From: Aporhodopirellula rubra
GTDB lineage: Bacteria; Planctomycetota; Planctomycetia; Pirellulales; Pirellulaceae
Assembly: GCF_014192335.1 (NCBI RefSeq)
Contig: NZ_JACHXU010000023.1
Location: 62,001 to 126,000 of the forward strand
DNA length: 64,000 bases
Reading direction: 5' to 3'
Shown here: positions 22,316-29,283 of the stretch, one piece after another
Layout of the letters: each line of letters starts with the position of its first letter
Position numbering within the stretch: the first letter of the stretch is position 1
Notes under the pieces: model-generated
Told to the model about the DNA's origin: nothing
What the model saw: the letters and a program-made list of their open reading frames with translations, nothing else
Databases searched by the model: none
Made by a program: the position numbers and the translations under genes

Positions 22316-23170
22316 CTACCAGCGTCCGGTCCAACGATCCGTTTGAATGATCCGGCGAGCCTCTTCGCTGATGCCGTACTTCAGGTTCGGCTGATTCAAT
22401 TCGAGGAACACGGTGTACTTCTGGTGGACGGCATCGCTGAACACGACTGGCGCGTGTGTGATTCGCAACAGGTGGACGGGAATCCCGTTCCATCGACGAG
22501 TGTAAACGCCCGCGTCGAGTGCTTTCTCGCCTTCCAGGCCGTAGTGACTCGTCAGCGTCGAAATCATTCGCTGAGCGTCGCCGGTAAATCCGTGCAGATT
22601 GATTCGTTGGATCGAACCGGAACGATCGAAGTAATACGTCAACGTTCCCGCGAGATCATCGCTGCGAATCCCCGTCACCACCGGCACCCGCAAACCTTCG
22701 AGCTGCAGGTCCGCGAGCACAGTCGAGACGCGCGAAAATCGGTTGAGAATCATCGGCGGTGTCAAATCAAACCGCAACGCCTCGCGGATGTCGGCCACGT
22801 TGTTGCCCGCGAGACTCGGCGTGGCGTTGGCGTCCTCCGGCATCGCGCCGAGTTTGCGGGCGATGTCCTCTTCGTACCGGTATCGCGACGAAGAAACCGG
22901 TCGCAACGTTTCGACCTGATGATGCGAGTGAACCGGATAGCGATCCGACCCCGGTGTTTGCACCACGCCTCCGACGGGCGCCTCGCCTGCGGCGCTGCTC
23001 CACGGTGCCGACGCGGTCAACGAACCGGCCTCACCGTTGATTTGGCTTGTGATCGTTGCGGTGGCTTCGCGCCCCCATTCGGTTTCATTGGCAACGTACG
23101 GAGTTCCAGCGGCGACGGCTAATACGGCGATCTTTCCAATGCGTCCGCCAATCATCCCTACTTCTCCCAA
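22316..23170 (-). CDS. conserved hypothetical exported protein (284 aa)
   Basis: A 284-residue protein with an N-terminal hydrophobic stretch (about residues 6-24), which could be a signal or anchor. A variable Ser/Ala-rich region follows (about 30-95). The C-terminal half (about 125-284) is mixed alpha/beta and includes a YYFDRSG segment and a regular ending. I recall similar uncharacterised planctomycete proteins but cannot name a domain with confidence. The 309-codon plus-strand frame at 22193-23122 is a shadow. Confidence 0.65.
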   Translation of the reverse strand: MGEVGMIGGRIGKIAVLAVAAGTPYVANETEWGREATATITSQINGEAGSLTASAPWSSAAGEAPVGGVVQTPGSDRYPVHSHHQVETLRPVSSSRYRYEEDIARKLGAMPEDANATPSLAGNNVADIREALRFDLTPPMILNRFSRVSTVLADLQLEGLRVPVVTGIRSDDLAGTLTYYFDRSGSIQRINLHGFTGDAQRMISTLTSHYGLEGEKALDAGVYTRRWNGIPVHLLRITHAPVVFSDAVHQKYTVFLELNQPNLKYGISEEARRIIQTDRWTGRW

Positions 23171-23965: not shown

Positions 23966-24778
23966 CTATTGCGTTTTCATCCGGTCGGCCAATTCTCCCA
24001 TCACAACCCACATTTCTTTTGCGATTTGTAAACTGCGTTCGTCGTAGGTCGCCGATTCTTCCTCGGTGCCATCGGACGCTTTCGGATCGACGTACAGCAT
24101 CGCCACGCGGTCTGTCGCTCCGCGAACGACGGGACAGTTCTCGTCCGCGTGATCGCAACACATCACGGCGATGTATTTCGACTTCGGATTGTGAGCTTCA
24201 TCATAAACCTTGCTAAAGCACATCACCGGCGGATGCGAGTCGCTGAACGACAGGTCATAGAACACGTTCTCGCCGGTCTCGGGCCTCGCGTCTTCATCAC
24301 GACTCACCACGAAACCGGCCCGCCTCAACGACGCGATCGTTCTCGGGTTGCACGCCGTCGCTTCGGTTCCGCCGCTGAAACACACCACATCGTCACGCGT
24401 CAAACCGAAGTGAGCCGCTGCCGTTTGTGCCCAAACCTGTGCGAACTGACTCCTTCGTGAATTGTGAGTGCAGATGAACGTCAACATGACGGGCCTGCTC
24501 TCACGCAATCGCGTTTCGACGACTTTGGTCAATTCGTCGACGACCTCTCGTCGCTCGGGCGACAACGACTCTTTCACTCGCCGCCAATCGGTTTCACCCA
24601 CAAACGCACGAATCGGTTCACGAACGAGGGACTGATTATTCAAGAGTAAAACTCCGAGGCGGGAACCATTCGCATCATCGGCCACTGATGTTTGGCAGGT
24701 GACTCCGAGGAAAACAACACCGAGGCAACCGGCGAAAGCGACTATTCCCCGAGGGGCATTTATTGACAACAGACACAT
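23966..24778 (-). CDS. exported arsenate-reductase-like low-molecular-weight phosphatase
   Basis: A 270-residue protein whose C-terminal domain (about 97-265) is a low-molecular-weight tyrosine phosphatase / arsenate reductase fold. The phosphate loop CTHNSRRS has the CX5R arrangement, with Cys103 and Arg109. Downstream CCDHADENCPV resembles the Cys region of thioredoxin-type ArsC. Unusually, residues 1-35 look like a signal peptide with a hydrophobic core, and residues 40-95 are an extra helical segment. The protein would therefore act outside the cytoplasm, where arsenate reduction is not usual. It could be a phosphatase instead. No ars operon surrounds it. Confidence 0.75.
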   Translation of the reverse strand: MCLLSINAPRGIVAFAGCLGVVFLGVTCQTSVADDANGSRLGVLLLNNQSLVREPIRAFVGETDWRRVKESLSPERREVVDELTKVVETRLRESRPVMLTFICTHNSRRSQFAQVWAQTAAAHFGLTRDDVVCFSGGTEATACNPRTIASLRRAGFVVSRDEDARPETGENVFYDLSFSDSHPPVMCFSKVYDEAHNPKSKYIAVMCCDHADENCPVVRGATDRVAMLYVDPKASDGTEEESATYDERSLQIAKEMWVVMGELADRMKTQ

Positions 24779-25065: not shown

Positions 25066-26070
25066 ATGATTCTTGCCGAGAAAACTCGCTCCTGCACGCT
25101 CGTTGTCTCCAAAGGGCAGTCTCGCAACCCGGCGAAACGGGCCCTGGAACAGGCGATCGCGGACGCGGGAGGCAAGATCCCCGATTTAAACGTCCTCGTC
25201 GTCCCGCACCTTTACGATTTGCCGAAAAACGGCGACGCGATCAGTCGGCTCCGCGAAATCGAAGGCGACGTGATTTTGGCGAGCTGGATCTTTCCGCGTG
25301 CAGCCCACTGGGTGCTCGACCGCAACGGCGTCGGAGGCACGCCCGGCGACGTGTTGCTCGGTAACAGCGACGATGAAGACGACGCAGCCGAACCTGAACC
25401 TGCCGCCGAGGCGCAAGACGATTCAACCGAACGGATGACGGACCTTTACCCGCGTCCAAGTCGGAAGATCTTTTGCATCGACCTGAAGTCATCCGAAGAC
25501 ACGACCGAATTCGTCGGTGAGATTCAGCGAATCCTGGGTCTCGACTCCGAAACGAATGACAACCGCTCGTTGCCCATCGTGGGTGGAAAGATCGAGTCGG
25601 TTGAGGAGACCGCGGGCAGGCGTTGGTATCCCGTCATCGACTACAGTAGGTGCACCAATTGCATGGAGTGCGTCGACTTCTGCCTGTTCGGCGTTTACGG
25701 CGTCGATGGTGTCGAAAGCATCATGGTCGAGCAACCCGACAATTGTCGTAAGGGTTGCCCTGCCTGCAGTCGCGTGTGTCCCGAGAACGCAATCATCTTC
25801 CCTCAGCACAAAGCTCCCGCAATCGCCGGTGCCGAAACCGAAGGGGACGAGGGATTCAAGATTGACCTTTCGCAACTGTTTGGTGCCCCTAATGCCGGTG
25901 ACGATCCAATCGCAACGGCGGCGCGTGAACGCGACGAGCAATTGTTACTCGCCGGACGTGGCACCGTCGGAATCGACGAGCGACTGAAGAAACGCCAATC
26001 GGCCCGCAGCAATCAACCGAAAGACGAGCTCGATCGACTCGTCGACACACTCGATGAGATGGACCTTTGA
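25066..26070 (+). CDS. protein with 2x[4Fe-4S] ferredoxin domain
   Basis: A 334-residue soluble protein. Residues 1-95 form a small alpha/beta domain with an unusual ILASWIFPRAAHW strand. An acidic low-complexity linker follows (about 100-125). At 190-245 two [4Fe-4S] motifs are present: Cys196, 199, 202 and 206 (CxxCxxCxxxC), and Cys227, 231, 234 and 238 (CxxxCxxCxxxC). The tail is helical and charged. It likely shuttles electrons to an unknown partner. ATG 25066 is chosen; an in-frame upstream start exists at 24994. Its stop overlaps the TTG start of the next gene, heading a four-gene overlapping operon. Confidence 0.85.
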   Translation: MILAEKTRSCTLVVSKGQSRNPAKRALEQAIADAGGKIPDLNVLVVPHLYDLPKNGDAISRLREIEGDVILASWIFPRAAHWVLDRNGVGGTPGDVLLGNSDDEDDAAEPEPAAEAQDDSTERMTDLYPRPSRKIFCIDLKSSEDTTEFVGEIQRILGLDSETNDNRSLPIVGGKIESVEETAGRRWYPVIDYSRCTNCMECVDFCLFGVYGVDGVESIMVEQPDNCRKGCPACSRVCPENAIIFPQHKAPAIAGAETEGDEGFKIDLSQLFGAPNAGDDPIATAARERDEQLLLAGRGTVGIDERLKKRQSARSNQPKDELDRLVDTLDEMDL

Positions 26071-26810
26071 CCCAAAACACTGATTCCGTCGACACATCCA
26101 CCACTCAGCGAAATATCCTAGGCGTTGCACTCGACATGGATGGGCTGCTGTTCGATACCGAACGCATCTATTACCGCGTCGGTGACGTCGTGCTGCAACG
26201 ACGAGGCTTCCGGTTTTCCAACGAGCTGCAATCTCGAATGATGGGTCGTGTGGGGCTGAGCGCGATCGCGGAAATGATCGCCTTTCATGAACTCAGTGAC
26301 GATCCGGCTGAATTGCTCGAGGAATCCAACTCCGTTTACGGTGAACTGCTGCTCGAACATCTTCGGCCGATGCCCAGCCTCGATCAGTGGATGGAATACC
26401 TGATCAACAGTGGTGTCCCCTTTGGTCTCGCCACCAGCAGCCAGCGTCAGTTCGTAGACATGATTTTGCCGACAACCCATTGGCACGAACAACTCGCGTT
26501 CGTTCTCACCGGTGATGATGTCACCAACGGCAAACCGCACCCTGAGATGTACCTCAAAGCGGCCGCAGCATTGGCCATACCGCCCGGACAAATGCTGGTA
26601 CTCGAGGACAGCGGCAACGGAGCCAACGCTGCGATCGCCGCGGGCGCCGTCACCGTTGCGATTCCCAATGAACATACCCGCGATCAAGCATTTGACGGGA
26701 CGCACCTGATCGCGGAATCATTGAGCGATCCACGGTTATGGGATCTTCTGAAAAAGCACTCGGGCCAGCAAACGTCAGTCGGCGGCCCGACCGCACCGAA
26801 TCGCTCATGA
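26067..26810 (+). CDS. HAD-superfamily phosphatase, beta-phosphoglucomutase-like
   Basis: A 247-residue HAD enzyme with all four motifs: nucleophile Asp23 and acid Asp25 in DMDGLLFD, the Thr-Ser of motif II in LATSS, Lys in GKPHP, and the motif IV acid pair in LEDSGNG. The cap is helical, as in phosphoglucomutase/phosphatase subfamilies, so the likely substrate is a sugar phosphate or nucleotide. The start is TTG at 26067, overlapping the previous stop (TTGA). This start keeps the nucleophile region intact, which the internal ATG at 26137 would not. It overlaps the MnmE-like gene as ATGA. Confidence 0.87.
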   Translation: MTQNTDSVDTSTTQRNILGVALDMDGLLFDTERIYYRVGDVVLQRRGFRFSNELQSRMMGRVGLSAIAEMIAFHELSDDPAELLEESNSVYGELLLEHLRPMPSLDQWMEYLINSGVPFGLATSSQRQFVDMILPTTHWHEQLAFVLTGDDVTNGKPHPEMYLKAAAALAIPPGQMLVLEDSGNGANAAIAAGAVTVAIPNEHTRDQAFDGTHLIAESLSDPRLWDLLKKHSGQQTSVGGPTAPNRS

Positions 26811-28057
26811 ATGCGACGTACGTCAGTCGCATCACTGCTGTGGGTCGATCTGCCGTCGCGGTTGTCAGCGTGATCGGGCATCAAGCCGAAGCGTTCACTC
26901 GCGCTTGCTTTGCACCTGCGACGTCCTCATCATGGACCCCCGGCCAAATCCGCTACGGAACGTGGCGAGCCGACAGGGAAACGCAATCAGACGAAATCGA
27001 AGGCGAGTCCGTCGTGTTAACGCCTTTGGCCGAAAACCACTTCGAAATTCACGGCCACGGGGGATCCGCCGCGGTCAATCGAATCATCCAATCGCTCGTT
27101 GAGCTCGGTGCCACCCACGTCGACTCAGCCGAGTGGGCGAGTCTCTCTGCGTCGTTTCGCGATCAGGAATTCGAACCGTTGATCGCGGAAGCGGAGTCTG
27201 TCCTGACGCAATGCACAACACGCCGCAACGCAGCGACCGCGCTCGCGCAAACCCGCGGCTCGCTTCTGAGATGGACTTGCGACTGGATCGATCGAATCCA
27301 CACCGAAATCGCAGGAGATGAACTCGAAAAGGGATCAGACCATTCGTCGTCTGTATTGCTCGCAGAACTGCGTGCCTCGGCATCGGACGTCTTATTGCGA
27401 GCGTCGACGGGAATGCACCTCACGGCCCCCTACCGCGTCGTGCTCGCCGGGCCACCAAACGTCGGCAAGAGCAGCTTGGTCAACCGAATCGTCGGCTACG
27501 GGCGCAGCATCACGCATGACGCCGCGGGAACCACTCGCGACGTCGTCGACTGCGACACCGTGATCGACGGACTGGCCATCCGTCTGGGCGATACCGCGGG
27601 AATTCGTGCTGGCGGTGATGTGATCGAACAAGAAGGAATCCGACGAGGATCGCTCGCGATTGCCAACGCCGATCTCGTGGTAATGGTCCTCGACCCGAAT
27701 TCTCTCGCCGACGCCGATTCGATACAGAAAACCATCACCTCTCACAATCCCGACGCATCGATTCTACGTGTTCTCAACAAAGCCGACCGTCTTCTCGAAA
27801 CGGCAGAGGAAACACACTCTGAATCAACGTGGCTCCGCACCATCGCGCATGACGCGGAGGCGCAGCAGAACGGAATCGAAGCACTCAAGAAAGCAATCTC
27901 CTCGACCCTTCGTCCACTCGAGTTTGACCACTCATCGGCAATGCCGATCGTGCCTCGTCACGTCCATTGGCTGAGTCAGATCGTAGGCAGTGCCAATCTT
28001 CGCCAATCAGTCGAACGTTTGACCGCACTTCGCGCCGGAGCGGAGACCGGCACGTGA
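26807..28057 (+). CDS. MnmE/TrmE-like GTPase, degenerate paralogue
   Basis: A 416-residue GTPase of the MnmE group. The G domain (about 208-345) is complete: G1 GPPNVGKS at 215-222, AGTTRD at 240-245, G3 DTAG at 262-265 and G4 NKAD at 324-327. The N-terminal region (1-115) has the weak MnmE folate-domain pattern with HGHGG at 82-86. The canonical EFTKRAF and GKLDL region is unrecognisable, however. The C-terminal CIGK-type motif with the essential Cys is absent and the C-terminus stops short. MnmE is normally about 450 residues. Whether it still modifies tRNA wobble uridines is doubtful. It overlaps both neighbours by ATGA and GTGA. Confidence 0.8.
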   Translation: MNATYVSRITAVGRSAVAVVSVIGHQAEAFTRACFAPATSSSWTPGQIRYGTWRADRETQSDEIEGESVVLTPLAENHFEIHGHGGSAAVNRIIQSLVELGATHVDSAEWASLSASFRDQEFEPLIAEAESVLTQCTTRRNAATALAQTRGSLLRWTCDWIDRIHTEIAGDELEKGSDHSSSVLLAELRASASDVLLRASTGMHLTAPYRVVLAGPPNVGKSSLVNRIVGYGRSITHDAAGTTRDVVDCDTVIDGLAIRLGDTAGIRAGGDVIEQEGIRRGSLAIANADLVVMVLDPNSLADADSIQKTITSHNPDASILRVLNKADRLLETAEETHSESTWLRTIAHDAEAQQNGIEALKKAISSTLRPLEFDHSSAMPIVPRHVHWLSQIVGSANLRQSVERLTALRAGAETGT

Positions 28058-29283
28058 GCGTTAACTCATTCCATCATCGAATACTCGGCGCGATCACGCC
28101 CGAACTGCATGCCCGACTCAATGAACTCAGTAACGATCCGGGATCAAAATCGAATCAGGATGCGTTCACGTCAGCCCAGCGAGCCGTGTTGGTCGACATT
28201 GCGTCACTGCAAGTGAAAGCGAAACGGACATTCGGTGCCGCCGCCAATCCCGAAGATGCGTGGTGGGTCACCCGCCGTGGGTTGCAACAATCCACGCATT
28301 ACCGCGTGGCGGCGTTAAAGGCGAGCTGGATGGGCGACCACCCCGTCGCGGATCTCTGTTGCGGACTCGGCAGCGACTTGATCGCGTTTGCCCGTCGCGG
28401 ACAAACCGTGGGTGTCGACATCGACACCGACGTTCTGTCTTTCACCCTGTCCAACCTACACGCGGCAGGCACGACGGCAGAACTGCGTGAACTCGACGTC
28501 ACCCAAACACGCCCATCTGACCTGTTCGGCGACTCTGAGTTACTCCACATTGATCCGGATCGTCGCGCCGACGGGCAACGTCATACAGACGCCGACAACC
28601 TCGTCCCCTCTTGGGAACGCGTGTGCGAACTGATGGACGCGACACGGGGCGGATTAGTCAAACTGGCTCCCGCCACCCAACTCTCTGACGTACAATCCGT
28701 AGGCCTCCACCGGACATGGATTTCCACCTCCGGCAGCGTCCGTGAACAAACTGCGATCTACGGCGACACCCTCGACAACGTATGGTTGACCGAACAAGGT
28801 TTGCGAGCAGGCGAGCGTTCCGCGATCACCATCCGTGATGGAGTCCCACACGCGTATACCGAGCCGACCTCAGGAGAATTACCAGACAACGCACCGGAGA
28901 AAGGTGTCGGAGAATGGATCGTCGATCCGGACGCCGCAATCCGTGCCGCCGGTTTGACTGAATCGTTTGCCCGCGCCATTGGCGCCCGAACGATCGGCTC
29001 GGCGAGTGGATTTCTGACCTGCGATTCGCTCGACGCGTTACAGCCGTGGGCGTCCATGGCAATGGTTGCGAGGGTGATCGAAGTCGTCGGCTGCGACGAC
29101 CGAAAACTGAGACGCTGCTTCCGGGCTCGCAAAGCCTACCCGGATTTAATCAAGGTCCGCGGCAGCGATCTCGATCCGACGCAGTTGGGCCGCAAAATGA
29201 AAAGCTGCGGCGACGCGCCACTGGGGCTATGGATCGGACGCGACGGAAAGAGAACCTACGCCGCGATCACCGAACCGATCTAG
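28054..29283 (+). CDS. class I SAM methyltransferase with THUMP-like domain
   Basis: A 409-residue methyltransferase. The SAM motif DLCCGLGSD lies at about 100-108, followed by VDID (acid that binds the ribose) near 121-124 and a catalytic-type DPDR near 165-170. The C-terminal part (about 320-409), with VRGSD and a final RDGKR strand, resembles the THUMP-like domain found in RNA-modifying methyltransferases. The start is GTG at 28054, overlapping the stop of the GTPase gene, so it is translationally coupled. RNA methylation is the favoured inference, in keeping with the neighbouring MnmE-like GTPase, but the target is unknown. Confidence 0.82.
   Translation: MSVNSFHHRILGAITPELHARLNELSNDPGSKSNQDAFTSAQRAVLVDIASLQVKAKRTFGAAANPEDAWWVTRRGLQQSTHYRVAALKASWMGDHPVADLCCGLGSDLIAFARRGQTVGVDIDTDVLSFTLSNLHAAGTTAELRELDVTQTRPSDLFGDSELLHIDPDRRADGQRHTDADNLVPSWERVCELMDATRGGLVKLAPATQLSDVQSVGLHRTWISTSGSVREQTAIYGDTLDNVWLTEQGLRAGERSAITIRDGVPHAYTEPTSGELPDNAPEKGVGEWIVDPDAAIRAAGLTESFARAIGARTIGSASGFLTCDSLDALQPWASMAMVARVIEVVGCDDRKLRRCFRARKAYPDLIKVRGSDLDPTQLGRKMKSCGDAPLGLWIGRDGKRTYAAITEPI

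Follow-up and report, generated by a model that had tools for sequence, protein, structure and literature searches.

In the known MnmE homodimer, the folate pocket is built across the subunit interface: one subunit provides R23 and the FCIGK motif and its partner provides H84, and the account in PMC12397908 places F73, R23, I129 and I133 of the own subunit together with G18 and H84 of the adjacent one around the K454 pocket. The E. coli MnmE dimer becomes asymmetric only on binding to MnmG. In the alpha2beta2 MnmE-MnmG complex, one MnmE subunit contacts MnmG, with the C-terminal helix moving into the FAD pocket (PMC12397908). Among the E. coli mutants described in PMC3695501, E282A leaves tRNA unmodified, while E282D retains full activity. 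The coupling of GTP hydrolysis to MnmE chemistry and the asymmetry of the MnmG complex are still being worked out. In the planctomycete Tuwongella immobilis, two MnmE paralogs are mentioned in PMC8567305, and the protein products of both were detected in two out of three replicates.

A four-gene operon, apparently assembled at genus level

In the window (the whole 64,000-nucleotide stretch of Aporhodopirellula rubra DNA analysed here), four genes follow one another on the forward strand. A ferredoxin-like gene (25066..26070, ATG start), with a Rossmann-like N-terminal part and two 4Fe-4S sites, precedes a HAD hydrolase gene of the broad beta-phosphoglucomutase/HxpB-like group (26067..26810, TTG start overlapping the ferredoxin stop), an MnmE-derived GTPase gene of the family hereafter called PAR (26807..28057, ATG start), for whose product we propose a helper role in a split MnmE, and a gene for a class I SAM methyltransferase of the PG_1098/TGS1 type with a putative THUMP-like C-terminal domain (28054..29283, GTG start). 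The 4-base overlaps TTGA, ATGA and GTGA at the three junctions, reported by the first-pass annotation, were confirmed. Indeed, both other genomes of the genus examined (L146 = G180 and L147 = G221) carry the identical four genes in the identical order, with all six junctions overlapping, five by 4 bases and one by at least 1 base (TAATG), and this recurrence means that the overlaps in the window are not due to chance. Identity to the window copy within the genus amounts to 52-57% for the GTPase, 57-60% for the methyltransferase and 76-80% for the ferredoxin, i.e., the first two diverge faster than the ferredoxin. As for the gene labels given earlier, those of the ferredoxin with two 4Fe-4S sites and of the HAD protein stood, and the GTPase does have a TrmE_N domain but does not reach the rank of an MnmE equivalog (see below). 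Note that the Thump_like (Pfam) score of the methyltransferase is 22.3 in the window and 28.9 in a congener, with a cut-off of 26. Divergent from the ferredoxin gene lies a gene for an arsenate-reductase/LMW-phosphatase-like protein with an N-terminal extension (23969-24778, reverse strand; LMWPc 26.9 bits vs a cut-off of 23.2).

The first-pass annotation named separation of the four genes in other genomes as a refutation of its reading, and a comparison of gene neighbourhoods finds just such separation outside the genus. Gene locations were taken from the best matches per gene in two overlapping draws, one of 146 order genomes and one of 100 family genomes; excluded from the order draw were ferredoxin matches below 170 bits (in 22 of 76 genomes), three of 130 HAD genomes because their matches were weak, and, among 145 GTPase genomes, five for which the listed matches did not include the best one. 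At the cut-offs used, all four genes occur in 75 genomes, of which three are the genus itself; they are clustered in 3/3 genus genomes examined but in 0/72 non-genus genomes carrying all four (order and family draws). Co-occurring gene pairs lie within 20 kb of each other in 5 of 425 cases in the order draw (genomes other than G000, that of the window) and in 2 of 395 cases in the family draw, and these seven close pairs in 820, which count the HAD-methyltransferase pair of G140 in both draws, are about what a rough hand estimate gives for chance. The closest pair, the ferredoxin and GTPase genes of G154, is convergent and 1.4 kb apart. Fragmented assemblies could hide links elsewhere, though not in the ten non-genus family-draw genomes with all four genes on one contig, where the genes are scattered and the nearest two are 28 kb apart (G215). 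In G121, the ferredoxin, methyltransferase, HAD and GTPase genes are found at 0.54, 1.96, 3.70 and 6.13 Mb, respectively. In addition, the GTPase and the methyltransferase each have a single locus per genome (family draw, at the cut-offs used, the G113 methyltransferase being in two pieces), and the operon therefore looks assembled from existing genes rather than from extra copies. For the genomes searched, the operon is thus a genus-level assembly of genes that lie apart in the relatives having all four, and not a dedicated system.

Outside the genus, three of the genes have recurrent neighbours of their own. The ferredoxin gene, whose eight 4Fe-4S cysteines (C196, C199, C202 and C206; C227, C231, C234 and C238) are invariant in 29 aligned sequences, lies 3' of PQQ/BamB-like (a label assigned by eye), HemN/HutW-like radical-SAM and GcvH-like genes in 7/13 non-genus loci with flanks examined, and the six loci without the radical-SAM/GcvH context belong among the closest ferredoxin relatives. 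In the window genome, BamB-like and radical-SAM genes stand together on another contig (G000:C28:7197-9957, L282). The recurrence of a BamB-like/radical-SAM/GcvH-like/ferredoxin cluster can be seen in L169-L173, L278 and L280; its HemN-HutW-like radical-SAM protein reaches 191 bits to TIGR04107 (cut-off 400), and none of the NCBIfam models scores it above cut-off. The GTPase gene is divergent from adjacent Peptidase_Mx (PF15887) and D-Ala-D-Ala-ligase-type ATP-grasp genes in 7/18 non-genus loci (L149-L154, L162), and the methyltransferase gene from DUF6690 in 5/7 (L176-L179, L279). In the window, DUF6690 is encoded about 5 kb upstream of the methyltransferase gene (22319-23170, reverse strand), in the divergent orientation of the other loci, and a DnaA-like ORF (by eye) is located near the methyltransferase and DUF6690 genes in L176-L179.

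A dedicated RNA-modification cassette acting on a single substrate, as the first-pass annotation had imagined, is very unlikely. Gene order and overlapping junctions kept in 3/3 genus genomes examined would suit it, as would the co-occurrence of ferredoxin and methyltransferase slightly above expectation in the order (Fisher p = 0.014, kinship ignored), but both the lack of clustering elsewhere and these other recurrent neighbours argue against it. A substrate common to all four is unsupported, because the genes are dispersed outside the genus, the ferredoxin gene adjoins other genes and the HAD protein (HAD_2, 84.4 bits) fits only the broad sugar-phosphatase group, below equivalog cut-offs; the common-substrate operon was rejected on the scattering of its genes outside the genus. 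Separately, the model of the ferredoxin N-terminal domain is of low confidence (pLDDT 63.4), and its best structural match, the Elp-Hdr complex 8rvy (Z 8.3, rmsd 2.9 over 104 residues), is at about the level reached by models without a clear match. Kinship of this domain to CbiX-type chelatases, also considered, is backed by none of the structural matches listed.

The window GTPase and a second family of MnmE-derived proteins

The window GTPase matches TrmE_N (32.5 bits vs a cut-off of 29.8) and MMR_HSR1, and the GTPase alignment (from which one row, L029, was left out) locates its main motifs, all on the forward strand: the H84-G85-G86 codons at 27056..27064 (H84 of known MnmE forms part of the neighbouring subunit's folate pocket, as described in PMC12397908), the P-loop GPPNVGKS with a K+-type Asn at 27449..27472 and the codon of E274, which corresponds to the catalytic E282 of E. 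coli, at 27626..27628. With N, K, T, D, D, G, E, N and D at the tested positions, the protein has a K+-type G domain including the catalytic glutamate. MnmE_helical (PF12631) gives no match up to E 1, the C-terminal FC(V/I/L)GK is absent, and the scores stay below the NCBIfam equivalog cut-offs (NF003661, 160.2 bits vs 380; TIGR00450, 136.2 vs 252.6); judged by these features, the window GTPase falls outside the MnmE equivalogs. In a few other PARs, PF12631 is matched weakly, below cut-off. The sole PF12631 match in the window genome at E 0.001 is a canonical MnmE, which is encoded on another contig and ends in FCIGK.

Such canonical planctomycete MnmEs (hereafter CAN) and the window-type GTPases (PAR) were compared in a joint alignment in E. 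coli MnmE numbering. PF12631 is matched in 139/146 order genomes, above cut-off in 138, and both CAN and PAR occur in 132/146 (PF12631 above cut-off; 133 at E 0.001). In the 132 CAN rows compared, the position never coincides with that of the PAR, and adjacency of the two genes was not seen. Six order genomes have a CAN but no PAR among the matches listed (G026, G027, G037, G046, G082 and G096), and their CANs likewise have no H84; seven have a PAR but no PF12631 match, and G008 has one only below cut-off. Genomes with a single protein may be explained by incomplete assemblies or divergent PARs. In the tree, from which a partial CAN without the N-terminal part (L418) was left out, PARs form one clade (118/118, support 1.0) and CANs another (87/87, support 0.996), both apart from other MnmEs. 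This monophyly fits one early duplication in the phylum, although long branches could also group the sequences. PAR is a second MnmE family, present across the planctomycete genomes sampled.

Complementary pocket residues in the two families

Among order CANs (n = 51), R23 and E80 are each kept in 51/51 and the C-terminal C(I/V/L/M)GK in 50/50 full-length proteins, while H84 is found in 0/51, with P, L, I, V, Y, W or F in its place. The order PARs (n = 66) are the reverse, with H84, G85 and G86 each in 66/66, R23 in 3, F73 in 1 and the C-terminal motif in 0/65 full-length proteins. The catalytic E282 is likewise divided between the families, being present in 66/66 order PARs, 5/51 order CANs (13 more have D) and 78/78 comparison MnmEs; over the whole set, E is kept in 21/88 CANs and not kept in 9/117 PARs. 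Nine doubtful order PARs, whose best matches covered only the G domain, were fetched and all score as PAR, with H84 in 7/7 of those reaching the motif (L450 and L454 stop short of this region) and R23 in 2/7.

The same pattern appears in a phylum draw of 88 ORFs, two of them from genomes also in the order draw (G000, G015), with 31 genomes examined having both proteins (L442 and L443 contain no MnmE-type ORF). H84 occurs in only 1 of the 37 ORFs with the C-terminal CxGK motif, and in all 51 without it, of which 11 have R23 and 8 have F73. The comparison set consists of 78 MnmEs whose record titles name other phyla and of which none fits the HGG search pattern; these have R23 in 77, H84 in 78 and the motif in 76, with all three in one protein in 75; the contig scan that yielded them also gave two planctomycete PARs. 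The HMMER alignments of CAN and PAR to solved MnmE chains agree at H84. The placement of G15-G18 is less sure than that of H84 and the C-terminus. The loss is not perfectly reciprocal, since some PARs keep R23, one CAN keeps H84, and F73 is Pro in 17/51 order CANs. For E282 too the division is incomplete, as the D of the 13 order CANs corresponds to the active E282D of E. coli. The canonical-type MnmE keeping H84 (as HGA; L406) belongs to G244, where a PAR (L365) is present as well, and is possibly an intermediate state of a split. Another CAN (L325) has a His at the position after H84. With these exceptions, the two co-occurring paralogs keep the cis and the trans residues of the pocket reciprocally.

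It could be argued that both MnmE proteins are fast-evolving and partly degenerate, so that motif losses reflect relaxed constraint without any functional pairing. Their position apart from other MnmEs and the loss of several G-domain preferences in CAN would agree with such decay, which we nevertheless hold to be very unlikely, as the residues that are kept are near-invariant within the order (R23 and the C-terminal motif in CAN, H84-G85-G86 and E282 in PAR).

Since the pocket residues come from both subunits, CAN and PAR have lost opposite sides of one inter-subunit pocket, and the reciprocity of these losses leads to the prediction of an MnmE heterodimer in which a single pocket works. We consider it fairly probable that the homodimeric MnmE was split in planctomycetes into two complementary subunits, CAN and PAR. 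The complementary residues are directly observed, and the functions that we infer for them in the two proteins would be shared out as follows. CAN would supply R23 and the C-terminal FCIGK swivel motif, the presumed carrier of the one-carbon unit to MnmG, while PAR would supply H84-G85-G86, which completes the folate pocket of its partner, together with the glutamate that catalyses GTP hydrolysis. A CAN:PAR heterodimer would then have exactly one complete folate pocket, with CAN acting in cis and PAR in trans, which would fit the E. coli complex, in which only one MnmE subunit contacts MnmG. In the enzyme that forms cmnm5U34 in tRNA, PAR would be a non-redundant half, the one that hydrolyses GTP. 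A stronger form of this proposal, to which we lean with somewhat less assurance, is that in Planctomycetota MnmE, elsewhere a homodimer, gave way to an obligate heterodimer encoded by two genes, in which CAN would contribute R23 and the FCIGK swivel helix reaching over to MnmG and PAR would contribute H84 in trans and GTP hydrolysis, so that the asymmetry seen in the MnmG-bound state would be fixed in the genome, with one active pocket per dimer.

Alternatively, PAR may have been repurposed: its homodimers would employ the folate-type dimer domain and K+-dependent GTP hydrolysis in a different role (e.g., at the ribosome or in other tRNA work), and the canonical MnmE would act by itself, its pocket remodelled by a change of H84-G85-G86 to x-G-S. 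G86 is indeed replaced by Ser in 44/51 order CANs, which makes the altered site a conserved one; moreover, PAR has no swivel motif, and in some genomes just one protein of the pair is seen. Against repurposing stand the losses on opposite sides of a single inter-subunit pocket and the fact that CAN has mostly lost E282, a position at which E. coli needs E or D for both GTP hydrolysis and modification. We regard repurposing as unlikely on balance.

If the split of MnmE into CAN and PAR is true, the folate relay and GTP hydrolysis would reside on separate subunits, each of which could be removed or mutated alone, and the split would reveal whether a dimer can manage with a single working pocket. 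It would also explain two MnmE genes in a planctomycete, and it cautions against naming either MnmE copy from a domain match alone.

Comparison with known systems

The methyltransferase (METHYLTRANSFERASE) has a confident model (mean pLDDT 92.3), of which the best structural match is 3LL7 (PG_1098; Z 29.4, rmsd 3.6 over 375 residues), followed by human TGS1 (3GDH; Z 20.2, rmsd 2.8 over 191 residues); the next matches are at 15.5 (also TGS1) and 13.1 (the first outside PG_1098/TGS1). With the profile match to 3LL7 (E 3.1e-28), the window protein has in common with PG_1098 both the full-length fold and the sequence profile. TGS1 carries SPPWGG at the place that we take to be motif IV, where the window methyltransferase instead has DPDRR, invariant in the aligned homologues. 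An RNA substrate is plausible from the fold, and RNA guanine N2 would be a candidate target, which we infer with the proviso that a common fold does not establish a substrate. The RNA or tRNA link of the first-pass annotation therefore survives in altered form, i.e., by a different route for the GTPase (complementary loss with respect to the canonical MnmE) and as this plausible RNA substrate for the methyltransferase.

Regarding the split itself, no report of complementary loss or of a heterodimer was found in the literature on MnmE paralogs, duplication and heterodimers outside subscription journals and preprints, and the terms looked for do not occur in the main text of the Planctopirus limnophila essential-gene paper (PMC10632474). 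Tuwongella immobilis offers two MnmE genes in one planctomycete, as here, a likeness by description only, and the passages concerned in PMC8567305 contain no motif analysis, split or heterodimer.

Compared with MnmE (TrmE), the window GTPase has the same TrmE_N with HGG and the same K+-type G domain, with the equivalents of N226, K229, T251, D253, D270 and E282, whereas it is without an MnmE_helical match and the C-terminal FC(V/I/L)GK. Finally, the PAR family as a whole differs from MnmE in that R23 is mostly lost and in that it occurs beside a full-length MnmE without H84.
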